64,000 nt of DNA, from contig CACYPS010000004.1 in the NCBI GenBank assembly GCA_902776305.1, positions 62,001 through 126,000 of the forward strand, read 5' to 3'. Below the pieces are notes generated by a model that saw only the letters and a list, made by a program, of their open reading frames with translations, made no database searches and was not told the DNA's origin. The stretch is from an uncultured Lachnospiraceae bacterium (lineage in GTDB: Bacteria > Bacillota > Clostridia > Lachnospirales > Lachnospiraceae). This document shows, one piece after another, positions 23,895-45,485 of this stretch (its first letter is position 1; each line of letters begins with the position of its first letter). The position numbers and the translations under genes are program-made.

Positions 23895-23973
23895 AAGTTT
23901 GAAAGGATATTTTCAAACTTTGATTGGCGGGTCAGATGAACATGCAAGCATGGCCGCCTGACCCTGGAGGAGC
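23895..23973 (+). promoter_or_regulatory. Structured 5' element E79 (copy 1) before the pyridoxal kinase gene
   Basis: About 79 bases nearly identical to 45407-45485 (opposite strand). It contains hairpin 1, AAGTTTGAAA/TTTCAAACTT, the shared linker TGATTGGC, and hairpin 2, GGGTCAG...CTGACCC, with an inner ATGC/GCAT palindrome. It ends TGGAGGA, a Shine-Dalgarno-like core. Here the ATG is about 20 bases further on, so it is less clear than in copy 2 that this GGAGG is the site used. Confidence 0.75.
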
Positions 23974-23991
23974 ATATTACCGGGGATAAAT

Positions 23992-24834
23992 ATGGTTGAT
24001 CATAATCGTCAGAAAAAAATAGCAGTTATAAACGATTTTTCAGGGTTCGGAAGATGTTCCATAGCGGTTTCTCTGCCGATCATCTCCGCTATGGGGATAC
24101 AGTGCTGCCCGCTCCCGACTGCCATGTTCTCAAATCATACCGGATTTGAGAGCTTTTACCGTGTTGACTTTACCGGGCATATGAGGCAGTATATGAGCGA
24201 ATGGGACAAGCTCGGCCTTCAGTTTTCCGGCATAGCCACCGGATTTCTCGGTTCGGAGGAACAGATCGAGATCGTGGCGGATTTCCTGCAGGAATTTGCA
24301 ACGGATGATACGATCGTACTGATCGATCCGGTCATGGGTGACTACGGAAAGCTCTATCCGAGTTACAGTGAGAAGCTGGCAATGAAAATGCACCGGCTCA
24401 TCCCCTACGCGGACATTCTGACGCCGAATCTGACAGAGGCCTGCATTCTGACAAAGACAGAGTATCGGGAAGATATAACGACGGAAGAGCTGAGAGTGCT
24501 CTGTGACGAGCTGGCACGGCAGTGCGATAACGATAAGAATATTAAAATTGTTATTTCCGGGCTGAACAGAGACCGGTACCTCGAGAATTTCGTCTATGAG
24601 CGGGACACGGAGCCGCAGCTTGTCATGACACCTAAAATAGGAAGCAACCGGTCCGGTACCGGGGATGTTTTTTCATCGATCATCGCCGGGTGTGCGGTCC
24701 GCGGAATGGAATTTCGGGAATCCGTGTGGATGGCCTCGGAGTTTATCGGCAGGTGCATGAAGACGACGATGGAGATGGGGCTGCCGGGGACGGACGGGAT
24801 AGCGTTCGAGGAGCATTTGTTTGAACTCAGATGA
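23992..24834 (+). CDS. pdxY: Pyridoxamine/pyridoxal kinase family protein
   Basis: 280-residue ribokinase-fold kinase that should phosphorylate pyridoxal or pyridoxamine for PLP salvage. Signatures are the N-terminal INDFSGFGRCSI, PTAMFSNHTGF, IDPVMGDYGKLY, TPNLTEACIL and the C-terminal catalytic GSNRSGTGDVFSS, whose Asp is the base. Hydroxymethylpyrimidine kinase is the alternative, but SNHTGF fits the pyridoxal group better. A duplicated structured element lies just upstream. PLP is needed by CobD encoded earlier, but a regulatory link is only inference. Confidence 0.88.
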   Translation: MVDHNRQKKIAVINDFSGFGRCSIAVSLPIISAMGIQCCPLPTAMFSNHTGFESFYRVDFTGHMRQYMSEWDKLGLQFSGIATGFLGSEEQIEIVADFLQEFATDDTIVLIDPVMGDYGKLYPSYSEKLAMKMHRLIPYADILTPNLTEACILTKTEYREDITTEELRVLCDELARQCDNDKNIKIVISGLNRDRYLENFVYERDTEPQLVMTPKIGSNRSGTGDVFSSIIAGCAVRGMEFRESVWMASEFIGRCMKTTMEMGLPGTDGIAFEEHLFELR

Positions 24835-24853
24835 AGATTCGGATTGTGCATTT

Positions 24854-24965
24854 TGGCCGGATGCCGGCGAGAATGTACGGTGAGCATGTGTCTCAACTTC
24901 GCTGATGATTCAGTCTGTATATTTGAGTGTGGCCGGATATCGGCGAGAATGCAAGCTGAACATTT
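24854..24965. repeat. Direct repeat pair, 76 bp apart
   Basis: TGGCCGGAT(G/A)(C/T)CGGCGAGAATG and following bases occur at 24854 and 24930, and flanking GATTC-type bases are also shared, so a segment of about 55 bases was duplicated in the gap before the radical SAM gene. Confidence 0.8.
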
Positions 24966-24995
24966 TTCTGTATAAAATGAGAATGGAGATTGAGT

Positions 24996-25598
24996 ATGAC
25001 GATAACATATAAAGTAAAAAACGGAATATACGTGAACATGACGAATCGCTGCCCCTGCGCATGCACCTTCTGCCTGCGCCAGAACGGGCCGGGTGTCTAC
25101 GGATCGGACTCTCTCTGGCTTGAGCATGAGCCGAGTGTAGATGAGGTGAAGGCCTCGATTGATTCGTGGAATCTGAGTAAGTATGATGAGGTCGTCTTCT
25201 GCGGTTACGGAGAGCCGACGGAGCGTCTGCCTGAACTTCTCGAGGTGGCAGCTTACATTCGCTCCAAGTCGGACATCAAGATTCGTATCAATACCAACGG
25301 TCTGGCCGATCTTATCTGGAACCGCCCGACGGAGGCTGACCTTGAGGGGCTCATCGACACTGTATCTATCAGCCTGAATGCCAACAATGCGGAGGATTAT
25401 CTGAAGCTGACCCGCTCGAAGTTCGGTATCGGGTCGTGGCAGGCTATGCTCGACTATGCGAAGGAATGCACGAAATATGTCCCGAAGGTCGTTATGACGG
25501 TGGTCGACAAAGTCACGACGCCGAAGGAGCAGGAGGAGTCGAGGAGGATCTGTGAGTCACTCGGGGTGACACTGCGCGTGCGACCGTTTGAGAGCTGA
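24996..25598 (+). CDS. TatD-associated radical SAM protein
   Basis: 200-residue radical SAM protein of the short group often linked to tatD genes. It has NMTNRCPCACTFCLRQNG, in which the C-x3-C-x2-C [4Fe-4S] motif is embedded, then FCGYGEPTERL and IRINTNGLAD. The protein is short because this group lacks most C-terminal extensions. tatD is not in the window. The TTG frame start at 24990 is less likely than ATG 24996, which lies 7 bases after GGAG. The role is unknown. Confidence 0.85.
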   Translation: MTITYKVKNGIYVNMTNRCPCACTFCLRQNGPGVYGSDSLWLEHEPSVDEVKASIDSWNLSKYDEVVFCGYGEPTERLPELLEVAAYIRSKSDIKIRINTNGLADLIWNRPTEADLEGLIDTVSISLNANNAEDYLKLTRSKFGIGSWQAMLDYAKECTKYVPKVVMTVVDKVTTPKEQEESRRICESLGVTLRVRPFES

Positions 25599-25781
25599 AT
25601 AATGGGTGGAAGCTGATTACTGTATGACCATGTGACTGTGAACGTGTGGTCGCACGAGATCTCAGTACGTTCAGGTTACGGTTGGAATTATGCCGGCTTC
25701 GGCTGACTTGAGTTCAGCGTCAGTGATTGAGAAAGAATTAATATCAAAAAATGTCAGAGACGATTTTCCCGGTGCGGATGA

Positions 25782-26504: not shown

Positions 26505-26630
26505 TTTCGGGAATCGGCCGGAACGCTGAGTGGTTCCTTATTGAAATGAAAGCGTAAACTTTGAAACTATAAATTGTGAATTATGAGACAATGAATAAGA
26601 AAGTATATATGTGCTGAGAAGTGCGACAGT

Positions 26631-26682
26631 AAAGGACGGTCCTTCCGGGGTGTTTACATCACTTCGGAAAGACCGTCCTTTT
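26631..26682 (+). terminator. Intrinsic terminator
   Basis: AAAGGACGGTC (26631-26641) pairs with GACCGTCCTTT (26671-26681), with inner CTTCCG/CGGAA pairs, and ends in T. It separates the cell-wall protein remnant from the pilus island. Confidence 0.88.
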
Positions 26683-27415: not shown

Positions 27416-29785
27416 ATGAAGAACACACTGAAGCGTTTAGGAGCACTGCTCATCGCGGCAATTATGATGATTGTGATGTGCGTACCGGTAATGGCCAGGA
27501 CCACCGAAACTGCATTAGAGAGCGATTATCCCACTAGTGCGGATAGTGCAGAAGTGACAGTATCCGGATTTGAGAAGGGACAGGTCAAAGAAGTATGGGC
27601 ATATCGTATTGTAGATGCTGAATATGACAAGAATGGTCAGATAGGCTTTTCCGGTTATGTTGCAGTTAAGGATCTGCTGAGAGAAGCTACTGAGCAGAAT
27701 CCAAAGTCTTCTGATCGTATTCCGATTTTCGGAAATGTATCGGTTAAGGATGCTAGCGGCAATGAGAAATATACCTATACTGCTGATGACAATACTACCG
27801 TAGAAGTATATAAGAAAGCAGATGGAACCTACATTGATGGAACCGGTGCAGCCGTTACAATTCCGAGCGGAAAAACTCCGACTCTTGTTACAGAATATAT
27901 AGCTGTTTATCCGACTTCATCTGAGATATCGCTCCTTGCAGAGGATCCGTCGATTTTAGGACAGTCAAAAGAAGGAACTGATCCTGGTACGATTCAGCTT
28001 ACTTCAACCGATGGGGGAGAGACATTTAAGGGCACCGTGACAGTTGGCGAATGGCTGGTTATTGCTGTACCTGCCGATGACAGTGAGACAGTTTACAATC
28101 CGATGCTTGTAAGTGCTTACTATGTTGTTAACAATGATGGTGCAGAAGTCGTTACAGTTGATCCGATTACAGCGAACGACGCATGGGATGGAAAACTTGA
28201 AGTCAAGGATGCATACACCAAGTCTTCGAGACCTACTGTTTTGAAGGAAATTGTAGACAACAGTAGGAATAATCCGGCACAGGATTCCGGTAATCACGGT
28301 GATGATCACGCAATTGGTGATACCGTAGATTTCAAGATTACATCGAAGATACCTTCTTACAGTGATGAGTTTCTTAAATATGTAGATGCGGTTAATAATG
28401 CTGCACAAGCAGGTAATTCTTATACAACTGCAAATACTCCGATAAAGTATGAGATTACTGATACTATGGAGAAGGGGCTCACTTATCTTCCGGCAGCGGA
28501 TGCAGAGAATTACACAATTAAGGTATATGTTGGCCCGATGAACGATGACGGAACTCCAATGGAAGGCACGGAAGAATATACGCTGGGATTACCGGGAGAT
28601 CAGGGTTTCATTGCCAAAACTTCAGATAATAAAGAAGTACTTACATATACCTATGTAAAGGACTCATCGAATAAGGTCATCGGCTACAAATTAGCATTTA
28701 ATCAGAACTATATCCTGAATAATGATAACAAGACAGTTACAGTTACTTATTCAGCAAAGCTTAATGACGATGCGGCAACAGTAAACTATGACCCGAATGA
28801 GAATACCGTAGATGTGACTTATACAATCGGCCATGAGCCGACAGAAGACTCTCAGGGTGGCTTCGTGTTCAAAGAAAAGACACTTGAAGATACAACGTAT
28901 CATTATACTTTCGAAATCGATGGAGACGTATTAGGCTCGGAAGAGAAAACGAAAGATACCGATGGCGATGGTGAGCCGGATGATTATGAACATAAGACTC
29001 ATGAGCTCCTGAAGATGGATGAGAACGGTAATACTGACGTTGACAAGACTGAAGCAGACAAGGGTCAGGGTAGTACTGAAACTGTCAAAATCTCACATCC
29101 GCTCGCGGGCGCGATCTTCTCACTTACCAGAGTTGACGCAAAGGCCAATGGTGAAGTTTACTATGCGATGTCTGACACAACAGGGCATTTTGCTGCATCA
29201 GAAGAGAAGTACAATAATAAAGATATTAATGGCTTCAAAGGTCTTGACGCAGGCGTTTATGAACTTGAAGAAGTTAAGGCTCCGTCCGGTTACTCTCTGA
29301 ACAAGACAAAATATACTATTATAATTGAAGCTGAATACTATTCAGAGGATGCTGCGGCAGATAGCACTAACCAGTATAAGAAAGGTATGCTTAAAGACTA
29401 CAGGATAGCCGTGCTGAACAATTCTTCTCTTAAAGATGAGGACACAGCAATTATTAATCAGATTAAAGCCGGAGAAAAGAAGATTGCTGATCTTGATCAG
29501 TCAAAAGTTAGCTTAACACAGCATACGGCAACTTACAAATTAACCAAAAATGACAATGATACACCGGAAGATTCTGATGACACGTATGAAACAACAACTA
29601 CAGTAGTAGATAAAGATGTTACTTTATCAGAAGTACTTCAGGATTCAACTCTCATCAAAAATACGAAGCTTACTGATCTTCCGTCAACCGGTGGCATGGG
29701 TTCCTACCTCTTCACTATCATTGGTGTTGCAGTTATGGCAATTGTAGCAGGTTCTTACTTCAGAAGCCGTGCAAAGAAAGCCTGA
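27416..29785 (+). CDS. Major (backbone) pilin, sortase-anchored
   Basis: 789-residue secreted pilus shaft subunit. A Sec signal peptide (KRLGALLIAAIMMIVMCVPVMA) is followed by several Ig-like isopeptide domains. An E-box (YELEEVKAPSGYSL) lies in the last SpaA/Cna-B-like domain, and the sorting signal LPSTGG (about residue 755) is followed by a membrane helix and the basic tail RSRAKKA. A Ca-loop-like DTDGDGEPDD occurs near residue 520. I do not see a textbook YPKN pilin motif; IAVYPTSSE is the nearest. GGGGACTTCAAT precedes the ATG. Length and position first in the operon support the backbone role. Confidence 0.88.
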   Translation: MKNTLKRLGALLIAAIMMIVMCVPVMARTTETALESDYPTSADSAEVTVSGFEKGQVKEVWAYRIVDAEYDKNGQIGFSGYVAVKDLLREATEQNPKSSDRIPIFGNVSVKDASGNEKYTYTADDNTTVEVYKKADGTYIDGTGAAVTIPSGKTPTLVTEYIAVYPTSSEISLLAEDPSILGQSKEGTDPGTIQLTSTDGGETFKGTVTVGEWLVIAVPADDSETVYNPMLVSAYYVVNNDGAEVVTVDPITANDAWDGKLEVKDAYTKSSRPTVLKEIVDNSRNNPAQDSGNHGDDHAIGDTVDFKITSKIPSYSDEFLKYVDAVNNAAQAGNSYTTANTPIKYEITDTMEKGLTYLPAADAENYTIKVYVGPMNDDGTPMEGTEEYTLGLPGDQGFIAKTSDNKEVLTYTYVKDSSNKVIGYKLAFNQNYILNNDNKTVTVTYSAKLNDDAATVNYDPNENTVDVTYTIGHEPTEDSQGGFVFKEKTLEDTTYHYTFEIDGDVLGSEEKTKDTDGDGEPDDYEHKTHELLKMDENGNTDVDKTEADKGQGSTETVKISHPLAGAIFSLTRVDAKANGEVYYAMSDTTGHFAASEEKYNNKDINGFKGLDAGVYELEEVKAPSGYSLNKTKYTIIIEAEYYSEDAAADSTNQYKKGMLKDYRIAVLNNSSLKDEDTAIINQIKAGEKKIADLDQSKVSLTQHTATYKLTKNDNDTPEDSDDTYETTTTVVDKDVTLSEVLQDSTLIKNTKLTDLPSTGGMGSYLFTIIGVAVMAIVAGSYFRSRAKKA

Positions 29786-29880
29786 TAAAGGAGTTGCTTG
29801 CGCAGAGGATTTTTCATTATGAATGCGGATGATTTAAATACAGTCCGTTGAGGTCTGTGTCATCTGCGATACGTAAAAAA

Positions 29881-29914
29881 CAGACAGGGCCGGAAATACC
29901 TCCGGTCCTGTCTG
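29881..29914 (+). terminator. Strong hairpin after the backbone pilin gene
   Basis: CAGACAGGGCCGGA pairs with TCCGGTCCTGTCTG (14 pairs, one G-T). It is preceded by six A and lacks a T tract on the plus strand, so it may act as a partial terminator or mRNA-stabilising processing site that sets high pilin to sortase ratios. In the minus orientation it would be a canonical terminator. Confidence 0.65.
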
Positions 29915-29945
29915 AAGCGAAATATCAATTGTAAATCTGACTCTT

Positions 29946-30005
29946 TATTCTTCATCGCGCAGTACACATGGCTTTAGTCATGAGATAAGCGCGTTGAGGA
30001 AAGAA
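29946..30005 (+). repeat. Dispersed palindromic repeat, family R1 (copy B)
   Basis: ATTCTTCATCGCGCAG followed by a TTTAGTCATGAGATAAGCGCG block. It aligns with 59053-59112 in the same orientation. It lies in the 309-base gap between the backbone pilin and the first sortase gene. Confidence 0.75.
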
Positions 30006-30094
30006 TACATATGTATAATAACTCGATATATGGGACTACCGAATTCTTTTAATAAAGCGTGAGATTTACATTTGAAGAACAGCAGGGAGAATAT

Positions 30095-30949
30095 ATGAAT
30101 AAAAAGCTGATTCGAAATATTGCATTTGCTGTATTTTTCCTCATTGGTATGGGAATCACTTTTTATCCGATGATCAGTAGCAGATGGAACGCATACCGTG
30201 AGTCACTTCTGGTTACGGAGTATAAGAAAACAATTGAGGCAAATGCCGGCAGCGATCATTACAAGGAAATGATTGAAACGGCCCAAGCATATAATAAAAC
30301 ACTTGACGTCCCGGCAGTACCTGATGCCTTCTCAATACGTGAGGGAATTCAGGATAAAGTATATGAATCACTTCTCAATGAGTCCGGAACAGGTATGATC
30401 GGAACGGTTGAGATACCGGCTATCAAAGTAAACATTCCGATATATCACTATACGACTTCCGCATCTCTTGAAAAAGGTGCCGGTCACCTGCTTGGAAGTG
30501 CGCTACCTGTCGGGGGTGAGAGCACGCACTGCGTAATATCTGCACACAGGGGACTGCCGAACCAGAAACTGTTTACCGATCTGAATCTGGTACGCATAGG
30601 CGATGTATTCTTCTTTCATGTGTTGGATCAGACGTTCGCATACGAAGTAGATCAGATCCTGACGGTCGAACCGTCGCAGGTCGAGTCGCTCTCGGTCGTC
30701 AACGGGAAAGACTACGCTACACTGGTAACCTGCACGCCTTATGCGGTTAACACACACAGACTCCTGGTCAGAGGACATAGGATTCCGTTTACGGATGAAG
30801 ACTATGTCGAGGCTGTTAAGAATGCAGTACCGCGATCAGATAGGAATTATATGATGATGCAGGCGCTGTGCGTATTGATAGGTATTGTAATCGCAGTCGT
30901 TATCTTCCTGGTAACCGGATGGATAGGAAAGAGAAGGAAGATGAAGTGA
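30095..30949 (+). CDS. Class C pilin sortase 1
   Basis: 284-residue membrane-anchored transpeptidase that polymerises pilin subunits. N-terminal helix (IAFAVFFLIGMGITFYPM), then the sortase barrel: GTVEIPAIKVNIPIYHY, H151 in SAHRGLPNQKLFTDL, C213 in TLVTCTPYAVNTHR and the RLLVRGHR arginine, then a C-terminal membrane helix and basic tail, which is typical of class C. The usual DPF/W/Y lid motif is not obvious in the segment before the barrel. ATG 30095 is chosen because GGGAGA precedes it. The end overlaps the second sortase start. Confidence 0.93.
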   Translation: MNKKLIRNIAFAVFFLIGMGITFYPMISSRWNAYRESLLVTEYKKTIEANAGSDHYKEMIETAQAYNKTLDVPAVPDAFSIREGIQDKVYESLLNESGTGMIGTVEIPAIKVNIPIYHYTTSASLEKGAGHLLGSALPVGGESTHCVISAHRGLPNQKLFTDLNLVRIGDVFFFHVLDQTFAYEVDQILTVEPSQVESLSVVNGKDYATLVTCTPYAVNTHRLLVRGHRIPFTDEDYVEAVKNAVPRSDRNYMMMQALCVLIGIVIAVVIFLVTGWIGKRRKMK

Positions 30950-31863
30950 AAAAAAGCGATAGTAAGAAATGGGCATGGGTGCCGCATTTACTTAGAATCA
31001 TCGGTCTTATGATAGGTGCCGGAATCCTGTTTTATCCAACGATTAGCAGTCAGTGGAATAAGTATAGGGATTCGCTGCTTATTTCCAAATATACACAGAA
31101 AGTGCAAGACTATTCCGAGGAGCAGTATCGAGATGTCTATCAGGCAGCGAAGGCTTATAATGACCAGCACTTAACTAATTATATCCTGGATGCATTTGAT
31201 GAGAGTGCCGAAGAGTACATTCTCACTCACCCTTATGATACATTGCTGAATCCTCTGGGTGATTATGTAATGGGTTATATCGAGATTCCTAAGATTGATG
31301 TGTCTCTTCCGATCTATCATGGGGTAGGTACAGCTGCATTGGAAAAAGGAGCCGGTCACATTGAAGGCACAAGCTTACCGATTGGCGGTCCCGGAACACA
31401 TGCGGTTCTTTCCGGACATCGCGGTTTGCCGGGTAGAAAACTGTTTACAGATCTTGACCTTATTCAGGTCGGAGATCAGTTTTACCTAAATGTGCTGAAT
31501 GAGACGCTGGCATATGAGGTGGATCAAATTCTCACAGTTTTGCCGCATGAGACCGAGGCACTCGACATAGTGCCCGGTGAAGATCTGGTCACGCTGGTAA
31601 CCTGCACGCCTTACGGCGTTAATTCGCACAGGCTTCTTATTCGCGGGCACCGTATTGAATACAGCAAGGCCAATAAGAACGAGCAGGAGCGAAATGTAGT
31701 TGAAAAAGTAAAGAACGCCGGTATGGAAGAAAAACTCGTCATGGTCGGATTGGCGGTTTTCTTCGGACTGTGTATCATATTCTGGATAATTTCTGAGATT
31801 ATTCGCAGGCGGCGAAGAAAGCTGAATGAAACGGATGCAGACAAAAGGAACAATGGAATTTGA
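30946..31863 (+). CDS. Class C pilin sortase 2
   Basis: 305-residue paralogue of the upstream sortase with the same plan: N-terminal helix (LLRIIGLMIGAGILFYP), MGYIEIPKIDVSLPIYH, catalytic His in SGHRGLPGRKLFTDL, Cys in TLVTCTPYGVNSHR, Arg in RLLIRGHR, and a C-terminal helix with a basic tail. The GTG at 30946 overlaps the previous stop (GTGA) and has GGAAG 5 bases upstream; an in-frame ATG at 30919 is an alternative. Two class C enzymes in one locus usually divide the work on shaft and accessory subunits. Confidence 0.92.
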   Translation: MKKSDSKKWAWVPHLLRIIGLMIGAGILFYPTISSQWNKYRDSLLISKYTQKVQDYSEEQYRDVYQAAKAYNDQHLTNYILDAFDESAEEYILTHPYDTLLNPLGDYVMGYIEIPKIDVSLPIYHGVGTAALEKGAGHIEGTSLPIGGPGTHAVLSGHRGLPGRKLFTDLDLIQVGDQFYLNVLNETLAYEVDQILTVLPHETEALDIVPGEDLVTLVTCTPYGVNSHRLLIRGHRIEYSKANKNEQERNVVEKVKNAGMEEKLVMVGLAVFFGLCIIFWIISEIIRRRRRKLNETDADKRNNGI

Positions 31864-31941
31864 TGAAGTCTGCCGGAATGAGAGCGGAGAAGCGAAAACA
31901 TTATCCGATCTTGTATTTGAGGGGAAAGACGGAGGTAAAAG

Positions 31942-32931
31942 ATGAAGAATACAGTAAAGTATATGTTGCGCCTACTTTGGATCACCTGCATCGGAATTAG
32001 TCTGCTTGCAGGTGCGACAATGTCTGTATTCGCAGCTGAAAATATGCAGGGCGATGATTCTATCAGCGGACTATCAGGTGATTCAGCTATCGAAGATCTC
32101 GCAGATAGTCCGGCCGGCACAGAGAATGGAGACACTTCCTCAGATCGCTCTACCGGTAAAAGCAATCCACTCCTTCCGGTAGAGGATTTGTCCGGTGAAC
32201 TTGCTTCGTTAAAAGTTCATCTTGTTTATGTGGATGAGGAAATTAAGGATAGCGTTCCGGTCACGGGAGCTGTAATCGATCTGTTCAAAGTTGCAGATCT
32301 TGTTACGGAGAATGGGGCAGCACACTATAATCTGACGGATGCATTTACATCATCCGGAATTGATTTTGAAGGAATGACAGCTTCGGAGTCGCTGGACGCA
32401 GCAGAGAAACTGAATGCTCTGATAAACGAAAAATCCATTCAGCCTATTGCAAATGTTACAACCAACGAGCAGGGTGATGCATTGTTTACAGACCTTGATC
32501 CGGGAATGTATCTGGGAAGACAGCGGGACCTTGTACAAATATCAAAAACTAAAAAAATCACAATGGAACCTGTTCTCTGGATGACACCGATGTATATGCC
32601 GAATGACACGCAGGATGCATATGTGTGGAACTATTCACCGGAAGTATATCCGAAAGAAGGGGAAATACAGAAGATTCCAACGGCAACGCCGACGCCGACG
32701 CCGAAGCCGACTTCCACACCGGCCCCTACCGCTACACCGAAAATAACGCCAAAGGTTACATTGACTCCGGTGCCGATGCAGCCGGCCAGAACACCGGATA
32801 CACCTTCAAAACAAACAACAACGTCAGGGACAAAGCTTGTTAAGACCGGTGACACATCACCAATTGCGTTGTATGTAGCCGTCGGAGCGGCGGCTATAGC
32901 CATTATAGTATTGCTGATCAGAAAGAAATAA
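31942..32931 (+). CDS. Small (probably basal) pilin with a variant sorting motif
   Basis: 329-residue secreted protein. A signal peptide ends near SVFAAEN, then a Ser/Asp/Gly-rich spacer. A pilin domain (LKVHLVYVDEEIKDSVPVTGAVIDL...ANVTTNEQGDALFTDLDPGMYL) resembles the small SpaB-like pilins. A Thr/Pro stalk (TPTPTPKPTSTPAPTATP) leads to a C-terminal signal LVKTGD, a membrane helix and the tail RKK. The motif differs from the LPxTGG of the other two pilins, which fits a subunit handed to another, possibly housekeeping, sortase for wall anchoring. GGAGG 7 bases before ATG sets the start. Confidence 0.82.
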   Translation: MKNTVKYMLRLLWITCIGISLLAGATMSVFAAENMQGDDSISGLSGDSAIEDLADSPAGTENGDTSSDRSTGKSNPLLPVEDLSGELASLKVHLVYVDEEIKDSVPVTGAVIDLFKVADLVTENGAAHYNLTDAFTSSGIDFEGMTASESLDAAEKLNALINEKSIQPIANVTTNEQGDALFTDLDPGMYLGRQRDLVQISKTKKITMEPVLWMTPMYMPNDTQDAYVWNYSPEVYPKEGEIQKIPTATPTPTPKPTSTPAPTATPKITPKVTLTPVPMQPARTPDTPSKQTTTSGTKLVKTGDTSPIALYVAVGAAAIAIIVLLIRKK

Positions 32932-32956
32932 CAACTTACAACGGGGGTGAGTAATT

Positions 32957-35900
32957 GTGAAAGTATACAAGCGTATTTTGGCAGGTACTATTCTTGCAGG
33001 GTTGTTATTGTCGAGCATATCAGAATGTGCAGGTGACTTATCACTGCTGTCACCTGTCTCGGCTTCGGAGAGGTTTACCTGGGGAACCGGAAGCTTTCAG
33101 GATGATTCTACGTCTGTGTCCGAAGAAGCAGTAGAACTGACTGAGAATCCGGAACAGCCGGAACAGTCAGCAGAGCCGGAATCGGAATCCGAGAAATTTG
33201 TCTGGGGTGGGGATGATCCTGCAAGTGAAGAATCGAACGAGGATATAGTAGTTGAGCCTGATCAGAATACAAGCGAAAACAGAGATAGTGCAGACGGAAA
33301 GTTTGCATGGAGATCAGGAACAGACAATTCTGATCAGATGAAGGATGCATCTGTTGCGGAGGATGCGAAAGCTTCTTTGGAAGGAGAAGATATTCTCATT
33401 GAGGACGTACTGTCTGCCGATGACGAAGCTGAAATGCTTTTAGGCGCGGGGACGCTGCCGGACGGCGTTACGGGATTGCGGCAAACGGTTGATACCAATT
33501 CTATAATGACAATCAATCTTTTTGACTATCAGGCGTATGATGGCGGTGAGTGGGATTACAGTATTAATAACTATTCCTGGAATTCCCGGGGTATTGATCA
33601 TTCGGAGAATTTCAGCGGTACTACCATAAATAAAGACGCAGATGGCAAGCGGCGTCAGTTCCGGTTCTTTCCATCCGGAACTCAGCCTTTTGCGAAGAAT
33701 AATGGGTGGTATACTATTGATAATCCATATACAATAAATAATTATTCCGGTGGTCATGACGGCCTGCAATCATCTGCCGTACAGGGAATTGTTGCGGAAC
33801 ATACAGAGGATAATTACCCGGTCCTTAAGACCGGCTATACTGATAGCACGGTGCAGTCCTGGCAGGTTAACAACGATATGAGCCTTGCCTATCTTTTTGA
33901 TCCGAACATACCTGATGCAAATGTCCCGGGAAGAACCTCCTATACGGGACTGAACCATTTATTCTATATTGATGAGCAGGGCTACTATACGTTTGACAGT
34001 TCCAAGAACTATGCATATATAAATGCAGCAGGCGGAGAAAAAGATTTTAATCTTTACAACCTGGGGAAAGACAATTCAAACAAGGATTTGATATATCATG
34101 GTTTTTACCCCCTGACAGAATATCATAAAGAATGGAACGGTAAAAGTACGTCTCAGCAGCACACGACTAAGTACAACCATCACTTCAGTTTAACGATGTC
34201 TGCTGAATTCATGATTCCCGAAGGCGGAAAAATTAACGGCCTGGATGAGATGTTCCGATTCAGCGGAGATGATGATGTATGGGTCTTCGTAGACGGCAGG
34301 CTTGTGCTGGATCTGGGAGGAATACATCAGCCGATCGGAGCCAGTATTAATTTCAGGACCGGTGAGATTACATATGAAAACGGTATAAACAGTACTGCCG
34401 GAGGCGTAAAGAAAGACTGTACAACTGTACAGGTCGGACAAAAAGACAGTCAAAAGCAAAATCCCCGTACTGAAACACAGAGTGTTCTTAAGAATATTGT
34501 GGACAACAGCACACCGGATACGGTTCATACCATTCAGTTTTTCATGATTGAACGAGGCGGCTGCGACTCTAACTGCCTGCTGCAGTTCAACCTTGCAATG
34601 TATGAAAGACTTCGTATAGGGAAGAGAGTAACCGGCAATAAAGATGAGGATGACAAAGCTGCCGATTTTGGTTTCATAGTTTATCTCGAAGATGAAAACG
34701 GTCAGTTTCAGCCGCTTTCGGGCAACACCGTAAATCAGACGGGATCCATGCTCAAACTGAGGTACGCCTCTGACAACAGCAATGTTGTATTCCGTAATGA
34801 TAATCCGAATGTGTTTAACCTGAAAGACGGTGAGGATGTTATACTCACAGGTATACCGACAGGACGAAGATATTATGTGGAGGAAGTTGGTGTTGACGCA
34901 TCCAGATATAAAGTATATCTGGGTGACGATGAGATTCACGTTGTAAATAATACTGCGCAAAGCGGGCCCAGTCCAGTGTCGGCCAGACCTGACTTCATTT
35001 ATAAAAATGAGGTCAGACCCAATAAAGATATTCGTGTTAAGAAGGTCTGGTATGATAAAGACGGCAAAGTTGAAGACGGCAGCGGCATTACAGATGCATC
35101 TGTTACGATGCGTTTGAACGCTGACGGAGTAGAGGTCGCCAGTGTTACGCTGGACGGTGTCGAAGACGAAATAGAGACAGTACCATGGGAACATACTTTT
35201 GAAAATCTTCCGGTTGAAACAGTTGATGCAGAAAGCGGTATTGAAAGAGCTATTCATTATACTGTAAAGGAAGATTCGATAGAAGGCTATTATACCCTGT
35301 TTGATACTCTTGAAGAAACAGAGGATATCTCAGGAAAGTATAACGGAAAAACGTACTGGGAGGCTGTTGAAGGAATCGGGGATCCCTCAGAATTCCCGAG
35401 AGGAACCTACCTTGTAATAGATGAAAATGTAAATGCCGACAGAGCTTTATATGCAGCCTATGATTCGGTTTCGAATGCTGATAATGTGGCAACTTTAAGT
35501 GACCCAGCTATTCTTCACAGGATGAATGATGCGCTTGAGGATGAAAACGGGATCTTCCATAATGATTATCTATGTATCGATGAAAATCTGATAAACACGT
35601 ATCTTTGGAATGTAACGGGTACGAGCGGAGGTTACAGTCTTTACAATTTAAGCAAAAATAAATGGTTGGGATATGAGACCGGATACTATGATTATAATGG
35701 ACAGTCTCTGGTTTCCAGAAAGTCTTTCGCACTAAAGGACATCGAGCCTTCTACGTATATTCTGAATTCTGACATGTACATGGAAGGCAGCAGAACCGGA
35801 GCAAGCGGACAGACCATAAAGGATTATGTTTACAATAACAGCGGAGCTGTGGAGGTTACTCAGAATAAGGCAACCGCAACACAATTCACATTCTACAGAC

Positions 35901-38116
35901 GGATCATGCCGCTTATGACCAAAACGACAACGGCCGTGGCCGTTTCCAATAAGCGGGAAATTGATCTGCCCGAGGAAGATTTCTTTATTCCGATCAGCAA
36001 AAAAATTGACGCCATGAGAGATGGCGACGACAATCCGGATACAGATTTTGAAGATGAGCTGACAGATGAGCAGAAGAAAAACCTTTATCGTCTGTATCTG
36101 GACATGGGACCTGTAAAAAATAAAAAGACAAATGTCATCCTGGTAATGGATTGCTCCGAGTCGATGTATCCGATTGTATCTTCGGATAATGAATATGCAA
36201 TAAAGGTAGGTGACAACTACTTTGACAGAAGGTATCTCATGACGGACGAAAACGGAAATTATGTGACCAGATACGATGCGATGCTGGAGGCTATGACCGG
36301 TCCGCATTCACTGGTAGACATGATCCTTCCTGACGGAAACACTAAGAATCAAATGTATGTAATCGGGCTTTCGAGTCTCGAGAAAACATCTGTACTTACA
36401 GGATGGACAACGAATTCAACAGTTGTCGAAAATGCTTTGCAGAGTGTCACTCCGTCAGGCTATGACAATTATGAAGCAGCACTTGAAAAGGCAAGAACAG
36501 CTATCAGTACAGCGCCGAGGGGTGCGGAAGAAACCTATCTGATTTTTGTCAGTGACGGTGTGCCGACTGCTTATCTTAACGGCAATGCGGAATCCGCAGG
36601 AGACGGAGCCGGGGCTGCGGTCGGAGAGATGTCTGTCCAGAATCTTGATGGTGCTCATGGCGTGATTCAGAATACACTCGAGGCAGTTCGGGCATTTAAG
36701 AATGATGTAGGTGATGTGAAGATTTCGACAGTAGCTTTTTCCAATCAGGCTATGAACGACAGAATTGAAGCCGTAGATTTAAGCTTATGGGATGATATCA
36801 GACATGATTACAAACGGGATAAACTCAGTAACAGATATGATGTTTGTCTGGAAGAGCTCGTTAAAGACGGCAAATTGTACGCAGCAGGCAGTGCAAACGC
36901 TCTGAATACTGCTGTCAGCACTGCAATACCTATTCCTCGCATTCAGGGTCCTGTAATTAAAGATCAGCTGACAGATTATGTGACTGTCAAAGGGGAAAAT
37001 GATGAGGATATAAAAGACATCAAATGTACTATGAAATATCCGGACCCTGCCGATCCGACAAAGACTCTGACAAAAGTATTGTGGGATAAGTCAGGTCCTA
37101 CATCGTATAATGTACAGTCTGACAACGAAACGCCGATTATTCAGAATTTGTCGGTGTCGGAAGAAGGGCAAGTTGTACTTACCTTTAATCCAGATTATGT
37201 GGTGCCGGATGATTATGTGTTTACCGTGTCATTCAATGTGAGAGCGACTCAGAAAGCGGAACAGGACTGGGTTGCAAACGAAATAGCATCCCGCAATAAA
37301 GATTTACCTTCTGAGGAAAGACCTGCCGATGGTTATGCCGGAGTCAAAGGTGACGAGGGAACTGATTTCAGCTATACAAACAATGAGAATCAAACGATTT
37401 CCAATGATACAAGCTCGAAGCATCCCGGGTTTCATTCCAATGTCGTAGCGGATCTTACTTACAAAGTGAACCGCGACAAATACCGTGAAGAATATAAACA
37501 TCCGGTAATACAGCCCAGTACAACTGTGGATATCACTATGATCAAGACAAGTAGTGTAGAGTTACCGCAGGCTGACGGCACAATGGCTTATGACATACTT
37601 CCCGGTGTTGAGTTTACACTTTTTGAGAAGACCATTGAGACTGTGACAGGAGGAGACGGTACTGAGACGACAAAGGAAGTTCTCACACCGGTAAAAGAGC
37701 ATATTGTATCTGATGACGGTAAGGGTTATGAAGAGGGTGCCGACGAAGAGACAATTGCGGCAGCAGCTGCTAAGAAGGGAAAAATCTTCCTGAAAGATCT
37801 TGAACGCTTCAAGACCTATTATCTCAAGGAAACGAAGGCAGCGGACGGATACTTCTTACCGGGCGGCGGATGGACAATTGTTGTCGATCCTGAAGGAAAG
37901 ATTACTATCTCGGGCGAGGATAACTATTCTGATGAGTTTGTACTTCCGGAAGAGGGCGTGTTTAAAGGCTGTTATCGTATTTCCAATGTAAAGATGTATG
38001 AACTTCCAGCTACCGGTGGTCCCGGAGACTACCTTTTCACAATTATCGGTATTTCAATCAGTTTCGTAATAGTATTGTTGAAGCTAAGAGAGCTAAAAGA
38101 AGAAAGAGCCGCGTAA
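32957..38116 (+). CDS. Giant pilus tip adhesin with fibro-slime, VWA and Cna-B domains
   Basis: 1719-residue secreted protein. After the signal peptide comes a Glu/Asp-rich stalk with three copies of a (K/R)F.W..G motif (SERFTWGTG, SEKFVWGGD, DGKFAWRSG). A fibro-slime/PA14-like domain has FRFSGDDDVWVFVDGRLVLD near residue 437. A Cna-B-like segment precedes a VWA domain with an intact MIDAS: D1065-x-S-x-S in MDCSESM and the late FVSDG. A final SpaA-like domain has YYLKETKAADGYFLP. The sorting signal LPATGG closely matches that of the backbone (LPxTGGxGxYLFTIIG). The GTG start follows GGGGGTGA. A terminator overlaps its last codons and stop. Confidence 0.9.
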   Translation: MKVYKRILAGTILAGLLLSSISECAGDLSLLSPVSASERFTWGTGSFQDDSTSVSEEAVELTENPEQPEQSAEPESESEKFVWGGDDPASEESNEDIVVEPDQNTSENRDSADGKFAWRSGTDNSDQMKDASVAEDAKASLEGEDILIEDVLSADDEAEMLLGAGTLPDGVTGLRQTVDTNSIMTINLFDYQAYDGGEWDYSINNYSWNSRGIDHSENFSGTTINKDADGKRRQFRFFPSGTQPFAKNNGWYTIDNPYTINNYSGGHDGLQSSAVQGIVAEHTEDNYPVLKTGYTDSTVQSWQVNNDMSLAYLFDPNIPDANVPGRTSYTGLNHLFYIDEQGYYTFDSSKNYAYINAAGGEKDFNLYNLGKDNSNKDLIYHGFYPLTEYHKEWNGKSTSQQHTTKYNHHFSLTMSAEFMIPEGGKINGLDEMFRFSGDDDVWVFVDGRLVLDLGGIHQPIGASINFRTGEITYENGINSTAGGVKKDCTTVQVGQKDSQKQNPRTETQSVLKNIVDNSTPDTVHTIQFFMIERGGCDSNCLLQFNLAMYERLRIGKRVTGNKDEDDKAADFGFIVYLEDENGQFQPLSGNTVNQTGSMLKLRYASDNSNVVFRNDNPNVFNLKDGEDVILTGIPTGRRYYVEEVGVDASRYKVYLGDDEIHVVNNTAQSGPSPVSARPDFIYKNEVRPNKDIRVKKVWYDKDGKVEDGSGITDASVTMRLNADGVEVASVTLDGVEDEIETVPWEHTFENLPVETVDAESGIERAIHYTVKEDSIEGYYTLFDTLEETEDISGKYNGKTYWEAVEGIGDPSEFPRGTYLVIDENVNADRALYAAYDSVSNADNVATLSDPAILHRMNDALEDENGIFHNDYLCIDENLINTYLWNVTGTSGGYSLYNLSKNKWLGYETGYYDYNGQSLVSRKSFALKDIEPSTYILNSDMYMEGSRTGASGQTIKDYVYNNSGAVEVTQNKATATQFTFYRRIMPLMTKTTTAVAVSNKREIDLPEEDFFIPISKKIDAMRDGDDNPDTDFEDELTDEQKKNLYRLYLDMGPVKNKKTNVILVMDCSESMYPIVSSDNEYAIKVGDNYFDRRYLMTDENGNYVTRYDAMLEAMTGPHSLVDMILPDGNTKNQMYVIGLSSLEKTSVLTGWTTNSTVVENALQSVTPSGYDNYEAALEKARTAISTAPRGAEETYLIFVSDGVPTAYLNGNAESAGDGAGAAVGEMSVQNLDGAHGVIQNTLEAVRAFKNDVGDVKISTVAFSNQAMNDRIEAVDLSLWDDIRHDYKRDKLSNRYDVCLEELVKDGKLYAAGSANALNTAVSTAIPIPRIQGPVIKDQLTDYVTVKGENDEDIKDIKCTMKYPDPADPTKTLTKVLWDKSGPTSYNVQSDNETPIIQNLSVSEEGQVVLTFNPDYVVPDDYVFTVSFNVRATQKAEQDWVANEIASRNKDLPSEERPADGYAGVKGDEGTDFSYTNNENQTISNDTSSKHPGFHSNVVADLTYKVNRDKYREEYKHPVIQPSTTVDITMIKTSSVELPQADGTMAYDILPGVEFTLFEKTIETVTGGDGTETTKEVLTPVKEHIVSDDGKGYEEGADEETIAAAAAKKGKIFLKDLERFKTYYLKETKAADGYFLPGGGWTIVVDPEGKITISGEDNYSDEFVLPEEGVFKGCYRISNVKMYELPATGGPGDYLFTIIGISISFVIVLLKLRELKEERAA

Positions 38117-42508: not shown

Positions 42509-42685
42509 TTTTAAAAAGAATACTGATTTTCGCAGCTATTCATATTTAATAGTCCTCTCGAGGCTGACGTGAAAGACCGATTTCTGTCATAACCGGCCGG
42601 TTAGAAAATGCTGCGGAAAACAGTGCAGACAGAATCGTTCAGATAAAACAGGTCAGTCAGAACAGGTCAGAAAGTATGTGAAAAG

Positions 42686-44053
42686 ATGAATATTAAGAAT
42701 ACAGCCGAAAACACAGATAGAAGCATTAAGCTGCCGGTACCGGGGCAGAGAATCCTGCGATCGGTGCTCGCGGCGCTATTGTGCGTGGCGATATACTTCC
42801 TGCGCGGAAGGAGCGGCGCGCTGTTTTATTCCATAATAGCTGCGCTTCAGTGTATCCAGCCTTACACCGCCAATATGCTCAAGGTAGGCAAGAACAGAAT
42901 AATCGGAACACTGATCGGAGCGTTTTGGGGTGCAGTTGTTCTGTTCGGAGCACTCTGGATCACCGGCGGTCAAGTTGACTACGATACCACACTTATCTAC
43001 TATATTATACTGGCATTATTTATAGGAATCGTACTCTACTCGACGGTTGTTCTTAAAGTCACGACTTCATCGTATTTTTCCTGTGTGGTGTTTATGAGTA
43101 TAACGCTGAATCACATAGGGGATGCAAATCCGTACATGTTCGTATTTAACAGAACAATGGATACAATCATCGGTGTGGGTGTTGCCATATTGGCGAATTC
43201 GGTACATTTTTCGAGAACCAGAGACACGGAGACATTGTTCGTCTCGGGAGTCGACCACGTTCTGTTCAGGGAGGATCGCAACCTTTCACCGATAACAAGG
43301 ATACGGTTGAATCGTTTTATTCAGGAAGGCATGCAGTTTTCCGTATCAACGAAGCAGACGCCGGCCACAGTGCGGGAATTAACCGAGGGAATCGGTCTTC
43401 GGCTTCCGATCATAGCTATGGATGGGGCTGTCCTGTATGATATGAATTCGAAGACTTATATTCGCACGGTGACGATGACCAGAGGACTTGCGTGCGATGT
43501 CACAAGATTCCTTCTGGAGGAGAATGAGCCGTATTTTGTGAGTAAGGTCGAAGAGAATCTGCTCGTGATTTACTGCAGAGGATTTAAACCGGGCGGACCG
43601 GAGCCCGATAAGGGAAGCCCTGAGGAAGCGATGTATGCGCTTTATATGAAAAAGAAGGATTCGCCGTATCGGAATTACGTCAGTACGACGGAAGACATTG
43701 TGGACGGCGTGCTGTATTTTCTTATCATTGACCGCAGGGAAAGAGTCGAACAGCTTTGTGAGACGCTTCACAGACAGCCATGGGCGAACATGGTCAGGAC
43801 TGTATATGACTCGTTCGACTGCAGAGATGGCGAGCTGATGCTCCGAATATATTATTGCGGCGCGACAAGAAGACTAATGCTGGAGGAGCTTCGCCAGTAC
43901 ACCGGGGCTCCGCAGACAGTACTTTTCGGAATTGATAAGGCGGAGTGTGATGTGGTGATATCGGATGCCGGCGGCGGGCATATGGTCAGGGAGCTCAGGA
44001 AGAGATTTGAGCCGGTGAGCCTTAAGGGGTGGCGGAGAATTATACACTTTTAG
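42686..44053 (+). CDS. FUSC/aromatic-acid exporter-like membrane domain fused to a degenerate HAD domain
   Basis: 455 residues. Residues about 24-170 form about six helices with the ArAE/FUSC pattern (ALLCVAIYFLRGRSGALFYSIIAALQ, GKNRIIGTLIGAFWGA). The remainder resembles a Cof-type HAD phosphatase: LSPITRIRLNRFIQEG, the FSVSTKQTPATVRELTEGIG motif II region, and LPIIAMDGAVLYDMNSK. The catalytic motifs are lost: motif I (DxDGT) reads GVDHVLFRED, and the GDxxND motif IV reads GIDKAECDVVISDAG. The soluble part may thus be a ligand-sensing or scaffold domain, not an enzyme. The start ATG is preceded by a weak GAAAAG. Confidence 0.8.
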   Translation: MNIKNTAENTDRSIKLPVPGQRILRSVLAALLCVAIYFLRGRSGALFYSIIAALQCIQPYTANMLKVGKNRIIGTLIGAFWGAVVLFGALWITGGQVDYDTTLIYYIILALFIGIVLYSTVVLKVTTSSYFSCVVFMSITLNHIGDANPYMFVFNRTMDTIIGVGVAILANSVHFSRTRDTETLFVSGVDHVLFREDRNLSPITRIRLNRFIQEGMQFSVSTKQTPATVRELTEGIGLRLPIIAMDGAVLYDMNSKTYIRTVTMTRGLACDVTRFLLEENEPYFVSKVEENLLVIYCRGFKPGGPEPDKGSPEEAMYALYMKKKDSPYRNYVSTTEDIVDGVLYFLIIDRRERVEQLCETLHRQPWANMVRTVYDSFDCRDGELMLRIYYCGATRRLMLEELRQYTGAPQTVLFGIDKAECDVVISDAGGGHMVRELRKRFEPVSLKGWRRIIHF

Positions 44054-44077
44054 TCAGTAATGTTAGCCTCTTTCAAT

Positions 44078-44107
44078 AAAAGCAGCCGCTTTCGCGACTG
44101 CTTTTTT
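44078..44107. terminator. Terminator between convergent genes
   Basis: AAAAGCAG (44078-44085) pairs with CTGCTTTT (44098-44105), with inner CGC/GCG, then a T tract on the plus strand and an A tract on the other side, so it can serve both convergent genes. Confidence 0.85.
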
Positions 44108-44131
44108 CTATATCTGGTTGTTTCCGGTTAA

Positions 44132-44392
44132 TTAAAGACCAAGCAGGCTTCCTGCGACCCAGCCCCTGCCGTTCTTGATGGCGATCTCGTACCATGTGTA
44201 ACCGTCCTTGTGGACTCTCTTGCCGGTTGTGTTGACCTTGCGGCCGTTGCTGATCTTGCCAAGGACTCTGCTCTTAAGACCCGGCTGAATTCTTACAAAT
44301 GCGTATCCGACTGATGTGTTCTTTACTGTGCGGACTGCTCCGCCTACGATTGTCTCAAGTGCTGCATCATTTATCATTGTCATTCCTGTCAT
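44132..44392 (-). CDS. Double-glycine-leader small protein with an SH3b domain
   Basis: 86 residues. Start: ATG 44392 lies 9 bases after AAGGAG; the ATG at 44410 overlaps that site and cannot be used. The N-terminal 18 residues, MTGMTMINDAALETIVGG, match bacteriocin-type leaders (Leu at -7, Ile at -4, Gly-Gly at -2/-1), which C39-peptidase ABC transporters cleave on export. The 68-residue remainder is a bacterial SH3 (SH3b) domain (VRIQPGLKSRVLGKISNGRKV ... WYEIAIKNGRGWVAGSLLGL) with no cysteines. No C39 transporter is in the window. It may bind peptidoglycan or a protein outside the cell; bacteriocin activity is not shown. Confidence 0.82.
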   Translation of the reverse strand: MTGMTMINDAALETIVGGAVRTVKNTSVGYAFVRIQPGLKSRVLGKISNGRKVNTTGKRVHKDGYTWYEIAIKNGRGWVAGSLLGL

Positions 44393-44540
44393 GGTATTAA
44401 TCTCCTTCATATTCTTTTTGATTTATTTTAATTTTTATTTTCTGTTTTATCGGGCTTGTCTTTTGCCCTGACATATTTATATACGAAGGATATAGCGGTG
44501 GGGCTAATGAAAATATATTTTTTTGCGGATTTCATTTTTT

Positions 44541-45401
44541 TCAGCAATTCCCCGTGTACACATAGGTCAGATTCCTGCGTGCGACCTCGGCAAGACGATA
44601 CACCAGCCTGACTTCGGTAGCCCGTCTGTCCTGCATATGAAATCGCGGGAAGAACCGGGAAATATGAAGCGGAATACTCTGCCCGATCCTCTCGCCTCTC
44701 TCATCCGTGAGGCCGGCAATCCAGCTGCTGAGGGCATCCATTTCCTCCTCCGAATCATTTTCCCCGGGAATAATCAGAGTAGTGACCTCAACGTGACAGA
44801 CTTGGGAGGCTCTTGCGATAAAGTCCATAACCATTTTCCGGTCACCCTTAAGCACTTCCCTGTAATACCTGTCCGTAAAACCTTTGAGGTCAATATTCAT
44901 AGCATCAATGTACGGAGCGAGCTTTTCCAGCACATTAAGTTCCGCGGTGCCGTTTGTGACGAGCACCGTTTTCATGCCAAGCTTCTTTATAAGCTTTGCT
45001 GTATCTAATATGAACTCATAACCGATCAGCGGCTCATTGTAAGTGAAGGCGATACCGATATTTCCCTGATTTTGATAATAGGCAGCCGCTCTCGCAAGAT
45101 CTTCCGGGGTACATACGTCGGCTGTCTTCGCGAATTTCCGGGCTTCTTCTGACCAGGATATCTCATAGTTCTGGCAGAAGGGACAGCGCAGATTGCACCC
45201 GTAGCTTCCTGCGGACAGGATAAGGCTTCCCGGGTAGAACCGATTCAGAGGCTTCTTCTCGATCGGGTCGAGAGCGAGGGATGTGATCCGCCCGTAATTT
45301 GCCTGAACCACTTTTCCGTTTTCACACGTTCTTGCTCCGCAGAAGCCAAGTTTTCCATCTGCAATCACGCAGTGTCTGAAGCATACATCGCATTTTGCCA
45401 T
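44541..45401 (-). CDS. amrS: AmmeMemoRadiSam-type radical SAM enzyme (AmrS-like)
   Basis: 286-residue radical SAM protein related to pyruvate formate-lyase activase. The N-terminus has a Cys cluster (C4, C7, C11, C21), and the [4Fe-4S] motif C69-x3-C73-x2-C76 lies in GCNLRCPFCQN. NYGRITSLALDPIEKKPL, FTYNEPLIGYEF and FPRFHMQDRRAT are characteristic. In many genomes it is encoded with AMMECR1 and Memo genes, which are not adjacent here. GGAGG is 8 bases before ATG and is part of a duplicated structured element. Confidence 0.9.
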   Translation of the reverse strand: MAKCDVCFRHCVIADGKLGFCGARTCENGKVVQANYGRITSLALDPIEKKPLNRFYPGSLILSAGSYGCNLRCPFCQNYEISWSEEARKFAKTADVCTPEDLARAAAYYQNQGNIGIAFTYNEPLIGYEFILDTAKLIKKLGMKTVLVTNGTAELNVLEKLAPYIDAMNIDLKGFTDRYYREVLKGDRKMVMDFIARASQVCHVEVTTLIIPGENDSEEEMDALSSWIAGLTDERGERIGQSIPLHISRFFPRFHMQDRRATEVRLVYRLAEVARRNLTYVYTGNC

Positions 45402-45406
45402 AATTT

Positions 45407-45485
45407 GTTCCTCCAGGGTCAGGCGACCATGCTTGCATGGTCATCTGACCCGCCAATCAAAGTTTGAAAGTTTACTTTCAAACTT
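45407..45485 (-). promoter_or_regulatory. Structured 5' element E79 (copy 2) before the amrS-like gene
   Basis: Same sequence as 23895-23973 with only a few changes, read here on the minus strand. Changes in the loops keep pairing: ATGAACATGC becomes ATGACCATGC and GGCCGC becomes GGTCGC, which forms GACCATGC/GCATGGTC. It ends in GGAGGAAC, which is the ribosome binding site of the following gene, 8 bases from its ATG. Confidence 0.8.

Follow-up and report, generated by a model that had tools for sequence, protein, structure and literature searches.

Within the window, the 64,000 nucleotides analysed here from a gut Lachnospiraceae bacterium (genome G000), almost the same structured sequence precedes two genes on opposite strands, one for a kinase-type protein and the other for a radical-SAM protein. 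This raises a question: Do the two genes share a regulatory leader, or has one piece of DNA moved in front of both? The sequence-only reading favoured a cis-regulatory RNA (a riboswitch, protein-binding leader or translational switch) and named a mobile repeat bringing a binding site as the alternative. Comparison with the sister species G011 and with other Lachnospiraceae genera (G080, G304 and the pair G333/G439) supports that alternative.

The Two Copies in the Window

The resemblance of the two segments is real, with 92% identity over 85 nt between 23895-23979 on the plus strand and 45401-45485 on the minus strand. Each copy folds into two hairpins (z = -2.9 and -6.0 against 200 dinucleotide shuffles) and carries GGAGG close to its 3' end, and the genes behind them fall into the Pfam families PF08543 (kinase) and PF04055 (radical SAM). 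The features are as follows.

23895-23974, plus strand: copy 1, an 80-nt mobile unit (empty orthologous site in G011; 93% to the consensus)
23895-23920, plus strand: hairpin 1 of copy 1, of the AAGTTTGAAAG..CTTTCAAACTT type, from its fold; the sequence recurs in other genera
23929-23964, plus strand: hairpin 2 of copy 1, with two pairs broken (fold, alignment)
23966-23970, plus strand: GGAGG Shine-Dalgarno (SD) core of copy 1, from sequence, 21 nt before the ATG at 23992
23975-23983, plus strand: 3' target flank of copy 1, TATTACCGG, also found in the empty site
23992-24834, plus strand: kinase-type gene downstream of copy 1 (Pfam, PF08543)
44541-45401, minus strand: radical-SAM gene behind the element's SD (Pfam, PF04055); 45401 is the A of its ATG
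45397-45405, minus strand: 3' target flank of copy 2, AATTATGGC, which includes the start codon at 45399-45401
45406-45485, minus strand: copy 2, an 80-nt mobile unit between the native SD and the start codon (empty site in G011)
45410-45414, minus strand: element-borne GGAGG of copy 2, from sequence, 8 nt before the ATG
45416-45451, minus strand: hairpin 2 of copy 2 (fold)
45460-45485, minus strand: hairpin 1 of copy 2 (fold)
45489-45495, minus strand: displaced native SD, GAGGTGG, upstream of copy 2 (sequence, empty site)

Two earlier statements need correction. The repeat had been given as 79 nt, whereas the empty site of copy 2 defines an inserted unit of 80 nt; the bounds of copy 1 are set by analogy with copy 2, and the AATTA or TATTA that follows belongs to the target. 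Moreover, the differences in hairpin 2 had been said to preserve pairing, but between the window copies two pairs are lost, becoming A-C and A-G in the copy at 23895. The two genes also differ in their relation to the element. Judged by its spacing, the GGAGG of copy 1 is too far from the ATG at 23992 for normal use, and the kinase gene, whose start is among those misplaced by our home-made gene caller, has an SD-like GGGG of its own, its ATG lying 17 nt beyond the end of the unit. Since the GGAGG of copy 2 lies only 8 nt from its ATG, the element's SD is normally spaced only at the radical-SAM gene.

Insertion and Target

The element is mobile. Copy 2 has an empty counterpart at G011:C74:79776, where GAGGTGGAAC is followed directly by AATTATG, and relative to this site exactly 80 nt have been inserted without target duplication; the G011 site orthologous to copy 1 is likewise empty, with some further differences just upstream. 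Altogether, 14 site comparisons gave nine empty orthologous sites (seven occupied in G000 and two in G011), one site occupied in both species and four without result. Occupied and empty sites differ by a few bases at the junctions of L019, L023, L035, L036, L059 and L064, and copy 2 is therefore the sole exact insertion; target duplication is absent at its exact junctions, and none can be seen at the remaining empty sites, part of them with such junction differences. The situation recurs in a second genus, where locus L256 of G333 is occupied between SD and ATG and its G439 orthologue is empty.

The target is one-sided. The right flanks of 46 copies share AATTAYGGA immediately 3' of the element, and the left flanks of 37 copies carry at most 0.31 bits, with a G at -4/-5. 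Duplication of an SD target, suspected at three relatives, is unsupported at the resolved empty sites, and guide-target pairing of the linker with the 3' flank fits G000 but by eye is inconsistent in G333 and G304.

Distribution of the Element

G000 contains 36 copies, far above chance, a count from which matches short of column 50 were dropped (the hairpin-1-only places L039-L041) and in which six copies miss their left part. The sister species has at least 23, and the element was not matched in the other 40 of the 42 genomes of the genus, nor in the phage, plasmid and viral collections. Copies occur singly or as direct head-to-tail tandems, the later one beginning directly behind the SD of the earlier. 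With their empty orthologous sites, these 36 dispersed copies make the mobile repeat the better reading of the locus.

In related elements of other Lachnospiraceae genera hairpin 1 is conserved and hairpin 2 is different; those with two hairpins measure about 65-106 nt as far as the start codon, as against the 80-nt unit of G000. A first survey, in which two candidates were scored per genome and 18 loci taken, found the architecture in 15 of the 18 (it is absent in L189, L191 and L192). The subsequent pattern search yielded 57 rows, 47 with an open reading frame of at least 60 aa, and matched nothing in L242 and L243; it picked the strand by the longest reading frame, which biases it towards starts and was wrong once (L249), and the recounts in G000, G080 and G333/G439 were made with the strand fixed beforehand.

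Placement at Start Codons

Start codons are occupied in excess in four genera, with the element's SD at working distance. In G000, 11 of the 36 copies lie at starts (the eleventh, L033, was overlooked by the gene caller and added afterwards), compared with 3 of 122 noncoding WATTAY sites that open a reading frame of at least 50 aa (p = 5e-6), or 1 of 122 when the background is taken from called starts (p = 2e-7). For G080, G333 and G439 the matches listed come from a maximum of 40 scored candidates per genome. Among those of G080, 21 of 27 copies, or 21 of 26 distinct sites, are at starts against 20 of 72 noncoding YATG (p = 4e-6), three fragments without 3' end being excluded; the pattern-found sites alone gave 12 of 12, and 12 further places were then added. 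The non-start cases of this genome comprise, among others, the upstream members of tandems, a copy truncated where its locus ends, L370, and L278, whose reading frame the pattern search had accepted at a longer distance and which counts as a miss with the strand fixed. G304 has 9 of 11 sites at starts against a background of 3 of 31 (p = 2e-5), with the strand still taken from the longest reading frame and the first copy of one tandem left out. Among the matches listed for G333/G439, the figure is 36 of 55 copies, or 28 of 42 distinct sites, against 49 of 173 (p = 9e-6), excluding four loci with a non-aligning 3' end (L254-L256 and L392); 50 of these 55 copies, including most of those that lack a long reading frame, have an ATG that begins no more than 5 nt from the junction.

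Conservation had been said to run into the SD core, and this agrees with the relatives: among the matches listed, most sites of G080, G304 and G333/G439 stand immediately in front of start codons, where ribosomes probably use the element's SD. A predominance of intergenic copies in random orientation, which had been proposed as evidence for a REP-like repeat, is found in part, since 25 of the 36 G000 copies lie off start codons, the next gene running in the same direction in 15 and in the opposite one in 10; it does not extend to those relatives. Given these 25 copies, the start preference may partly reflect the target motif combined with selection against insertion in genes. An SD-like signal to the left of off-start copies is as frequent as in the control (16% in both at dG <= -5, p = 0.09), the 'other' class still containing three copies of G011 whose orthologues are start sites, and copies at start codons are not more strongly conserved than the rest.

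Hairpins and Shine-Dalgarno Core

Between comparable types of element, hairpin 2 shows compensatory changes. Across genera, 7 of its 15 pairs are altered on both sides and its covariation score is 0.378 against 0.170 when shuffled, with none of 500 shuffles as high; the shuffles are not exceeded by the count of pairs in which both sides changed (67 of 500 as high) or by the further pair types (500 of 500). Hairpin 1, in 36 sequences, has 12 compensatory, 12 wobble and 38 broken cells, 23 of the broken ones in its two foot pairs, which is no strong support for covariation. The GGAGG is retained in 11 of 13 start-codon copies versus 29 of 34 elsewhere, hence not better at starts, and the SD is largely paired in the predicted folds of both occupied and empty leaders.

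Neighbouring Genes and Regulatory Readings

A riboswitch is rejected on the Rfam results, the unrelated genes and the empty sites taken together, and the wider cis-regulatory reading from which we started loses ground on the same evidence. No Rfam family matched at gathering score in the window and 15 relative loci; with the limit relaxed to E <= 5, copy 2 gave a single chance match, mir-9256 (E = 4; 13.4 bits where the cut-off is 80). Among 50 neighbouring proteins scanned, 46 have a Pfam match at E <= 0.001, including EPSP synthase, GlgB-type, RecX, riboflavin kinase/FAD synthetase, RhaA and ketoacyl synthase proteins, and inspection reveals no common pathway. A metabolite riboswitch responding to PLP or SAM-related compounds would account for the 5' position at two genes and for the two hairpins, but it can practically be discounted when many unrelated genes, or none, stand behind the copies and the kinase gene, starting 17 nt past the unit, is preceded by an SD-like GGGG of its own.

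Search for a Parent Element

Neither a mobilising enzyme nor a longer parent with the element's ends was found among the eight Y1-transposase matches of G000 and G011, none of which has a listed copy on its own contig less than 10 kb away. Five of the eight have a common left end, TCAAG followed by AAGAATAGGC, unlike that of the element, and three could not be delimited; most of the matches are cut at contig ends. A repeat at contig ends, next to hairpin 1, seems to be a different mobile element that landed on hairpin 1, and not the parent. The ends of our element, AAGTTTGAAAG and TGGAGGARCA, do not form an inverted repeat; a MITE of DDE type was rejected on this lack of terminal inverted repeats and of a target duplication at copy 2.

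Comparison with Known Systems

Mobile elements near bacterial genes are chiefly familiar as sources of promoters or terminators and as causes of gene disruption, and the open-access literature searched contained no account of an element of the present kind. IS200/IS605 elements have hairpins near both ends, a short one-sided target and no target duplication, and a non-autonomous member of this family would resemble ours in all these respects; it would differ in that ours carries an SD and favours starts, with no autonomous element of matching ends among the eight Y1 matches in G000 and G011. MITEs such as MITEAba12, reportedly small non-autonomous mobile DNA, are similar in this general sense but not in the inverted terminal repeats, which our element lacks, as copy 2 lacks a target duplication. 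REPINs are described as pairs of REP sequences linked to RAYT genes, and REP and REPIN sequences are, like our element, short, hairpin-forming, dispersed noncoding mobile DNA with lineage-specific sequences and tandems (PMC3116915); unlike these, ours occurs singly or head to tail, bears an SD with a start bias and revealed no RAYT link among the Y1 matches of G000 and G011.

The closest precedent lies in the start-associated sequences of mycobacteriophages. According to the accessible part of their description, the 13-bp SAS of cluster K phages presents an SD core a few nucleotides before the starts of many genes, about half of which have an upstream inverted repeat (ESAS), with a consensus that varies by subcluster; there, RNA pairing of the inverted repeats is little supported and mobility is not mentioned (PMC3203893). 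The likeness is in the repeated SD core a few bp before starts, as in the relatives and in 11 of 36 G000 copies. As far as that description goes, our element differs in being bacterial, in its 80 nt and two hairpins that show compensatory changes from type to type, in its empty sites and in its sequence, which is unlike the SAS consensus and has no match in phages and viral contigs.

A Mobile Element That Probably Brings Its Own Ribosome-Binding Site

What, then, explains a mobile sequence that ends in an SD? With a probability of about 0.72, we consider these sequences to be mobile elements of miniature size, probably non-autonomous, which prefer translation starts and bring along a spare SD. 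We infer that a putative enzyme would move them in trans, recognising the conserved hairpin 1 together with the structurally conserved hairpin 2, and would insert them directly 5' of a short A/T-rich target with TAYG or ATG, no target duplication being evident. Because such a target contains TAYG or ATG, the unit would often land in the spacer between SD and start codon. The native SD would then be stranded some 80 nt upstream, and translation would continue from the SD at the element's 3' end, at working distance; since this SD would replace the native one, such insertions could be tolerated. A bolder version, to which we give somewhat less than even odds, holds that the insertion machinery itself selects the SD-to-ATG spacer and that the element is a portable 5' leader rewiring the initiation of housekeeping genes, possibly controlled by a binder of hairpin 1.

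Two other explanations account for part of the same evidence. The sequence could be an ordinary REP- or MITE-like repeat whose target happens to hold TATG, the start copies being what selection left and the SD a coincidence. The one-sided TAYG/ATG target, the mixed orientation of off-start copies in G000, the equal SD frequencies to their left and the even retention of GGAGG all suit this view; yet the excess at starts persists over noncoding YATG and WATTAY backgrounds in four genera, and the SD keeps its working spacing even in lineages whose hairpin 2 differs in sequence, which makes it rather unlikely. Alternatively, the hairpins may bind a protein or small RNA in a translational regulon, mobility merely spreading the leader. 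The conserved architecture with its compensatory changes speaks for such a leader, as do the start-codon positions of most sites among the matches listed for G080, G304 and G333/G439 and a linker between the hairpins predicted to pair with SD or spacer in several copies; by eye, however, that pairing lacks consistent covariation between copies. We consider this explanation quite improbable, for the neighbouring genes are unrelated, close relatives lack the element at the orthologous genes, 25 of the 36 G000 copies are off starts, GGAGG is retained no better at starts and Rfam has no family at gathering score.

To return to the spare-SD reading, on this view an 80-nt element may rewrite how genes start translation without shutting them off. 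If true, insertion inside a ribosome-binding site by DNA with its own SD would be a direct route from mobile DNA to rewritten initiation of metabolic and housekeeping genes. The element would also point to a putative mobilising enzyme whose choice of target is unusual, and the sister species supply paired occupied and empty leaders, a natural set for measuring the effect on expression of adding a structured leader together with a new SD.

The two copies in the window

The element is a unit of 80 nt comprising two hairpins and a 3' GGAGG, and two of its copies lie in the window among several other features:

23895-23974, plus strand: copy 1, preceding a kinase gene (PF08543)
45406-45485, minus strand: copy 2, preceding a radical-SAM gene (PF04055)
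11438-11502 and 62127-62191: dispersed repeat, 65 nt, 94%
20150-20205 and 45708-45763: dispersed repeat, 56 nt, 84%
4696-4731 and 49213-49248: dispersed repeat, 36 nt, 89%
17649-18462: tandem array of 74-nt period, for the most part in the gap separating two called genes
27416-38116: putative cell-surface cluster (ORFs named by eye), with large proteins bearing LP.TG-like C-termini and two membrane proteins that resemble sortases

The sequence-only reading had described the two copies as nearly identical, folding into two hairpins and ending in GGAGG. This description holds: as inverted arms they are 92% identical over 85 nt, two hairpins are predicted in each and GGAGG lies close to both 3' ends. 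The further claim, that differences in hairpin 2 preserve pairing, is wrong for these copies, the one at 23895 having two broken pairs.

Distribution and placement within the genus

BLAST found 40 matches in the genome of the window, G000 (4.08 Mb, 128 contigs), of which 36 copies were left after the places were fetched and palindromic echoes and hairpin-1-only fragments discarded; they include two head-to-tail pairs, and six lack the left part. Only two of 42 genomes of the genus carry the element, namely G000 and its sister species G011, which share long stretches at about 88-96% identity and have some element sites in common and others not. Over 2.6 kb, G000 matches a contig of RUG12442 at 99.96% identity.

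Eleven of the 36 copies end exactly at a gene's ATG, and nine of the 11 proteins have Pfam matches, including GlgB-, TrkH-, RecX-, EPSP-synthase- and radical-SAM-type proteins. As background, 3 of 122 noncoding WATTAY sites in the G000 sequence open an ORF of at least 50 aa (p=5e-6), or 1 of 122 by called starts (p=2e-7). For the 25 copies off start codons, the next gene runs in the same direction in 15 cases and the opposite in 10, and their left flanks are no more SD-like (Shine-Dalgarno) than controls.

Empty sites and target

The element is mobile. The flanking sequences of copies in either genome, G000 or G011, were searched for in the other and then aligned. Nine of 14 orthologous comparisons showed an empty site, one showed an occupied site and four had no clear outcome. 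Copy 2 is the clearest case: the empty GAGGTGGAAC|AATTATG corresponds to the occupied GAGGTGGAAC-[80 nt]-AATTATG, so that exactly 80 nt were added with zero duplication, between the native SD and the ATG of the radical-SAM gene. The empty site of copy 1 reads GGCCT|TATTACC, with some further upstream differences, and at six further sites the junction bases of occupied and empty forms differ by a few. Right flanks define the target AATTAYGGA (46 copies), left flanks (37 copies) nothing more than a weak G at -4/-5, and in tandems the second copy starts where the first copy's GGAGGAGC, or its variant, ends.

Other repeats adjoin the element. Contig ends of G000 (L042-L052) carry a repeat that is unassembled and probably represents an insertion sequence; it adjoins or interrupts hairpin 1 at four of six right-end contigs (L042, L043, L044, L047); its other end meets the hairpin-1 palindrome on four of five contigs (L048, L049, L050, L052), and it seems to take hairpin 1 as its landing site. 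Some copies (L012, L016, L055, L061, L076, L068) lie next to other palindromic repeats (TTACCGAAG.. in G000; in G011 TTACGGAAG.. together with partners of the ACTTCCGTAA type), whose ends resemble the target AATTAYGGA.

Relatives in other genera

Across the family, BLAST with the element matched 17 of 397 genomes and the hairpin-1 pattern (at most three mismatches) 16, the reversed-pattern control matching a single place in each of three. Among the matches listed, 15 of 18 fetched loci combined hairpin 1 with another hairpin, an SD and a start codon; a second fetching round also added copies with diverged hairpin 1. Three genomes outside the genus are multi-copy, G333 (14), G080 (13) and G304 (12), and their units share hairpin 1, each having its own hairpin-2 sequences and its own SD at the end (GGAGGACAA, GGAGGTTAA, mostly GGGGGTATAA or GGAGGTATAA), and a start codon comes next. 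Among the matches listed, the element's SD leads into an ORF of at least 50 aa at 21 of the 26 distinct sites of G080 and 28 of the 42 distinct sites of G333/G439; in G304, nine of 11 are start-codon sites, and all these fractions exceed the noncoding YATG background. Since 50 of 55 G333/G439 copies among the matches listed have an ATG beginning no more than 5 nt from the junction, ATG seems to be part of the target there. One G333 insertion, at a site empty in G439, likewise lies between SD and ATG. G395, related to G080, has element-free leaders at the same genes, with upstream divergence too large for exact junctions.

Structure, mobilization and function

Hairpin 2 has one architecture in the G000, G333/G439, G121 and G225 types. 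In a 17-sequence alignment, 93.7% of cells pair, both sides have changed in seven of 15 pairs, and the covariation score is above all 500 shuffles; neither the pairs changed on both sides (67/500 shuffles as high) nor further pair types (500/500) are in excess, and the changes represent few events between lineages. Predicted folds of 16 representatives lie 2.2 to 6.9 standard deviations below dinucleotide shuffles. Hairpins of this kind would suit RNA as well as single-stranded DNA that a transposase recognises. The Y1 transposase copies with readable left ends in G000 and G011 have ends different from those of the element, and several mobile elements coincide with breaks in the assembly. One Y1 match (L168, contig C51 of G000) lies directly after a putative group II intron maturase and a domain V-like sequence.

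No common pathway stands out among 50 neighbouring proteins scanned, the 46 with Pfam matches being unrelated, and Rfam returned no family at gathering score and one chance match. GGAGG is retained equally in start-codon copies (11/13) and other copies (29/34), and hence gives no evidence of post-insertion selection on the SD.

The nearest published pattern that we found is the start-associated sequence (SAS) of cluster K mycobacteriophages (PMC3203893), while REPINs (PMC3116915) share the character of mobile hairpins; as far as the consulted parts of these accounts go, neither combines mobility, an SD and placement at start codons. Most simply, this is a mobile element whose one-sided target frequently falls at start codons, where its built-in SD would make insertions tolerable.
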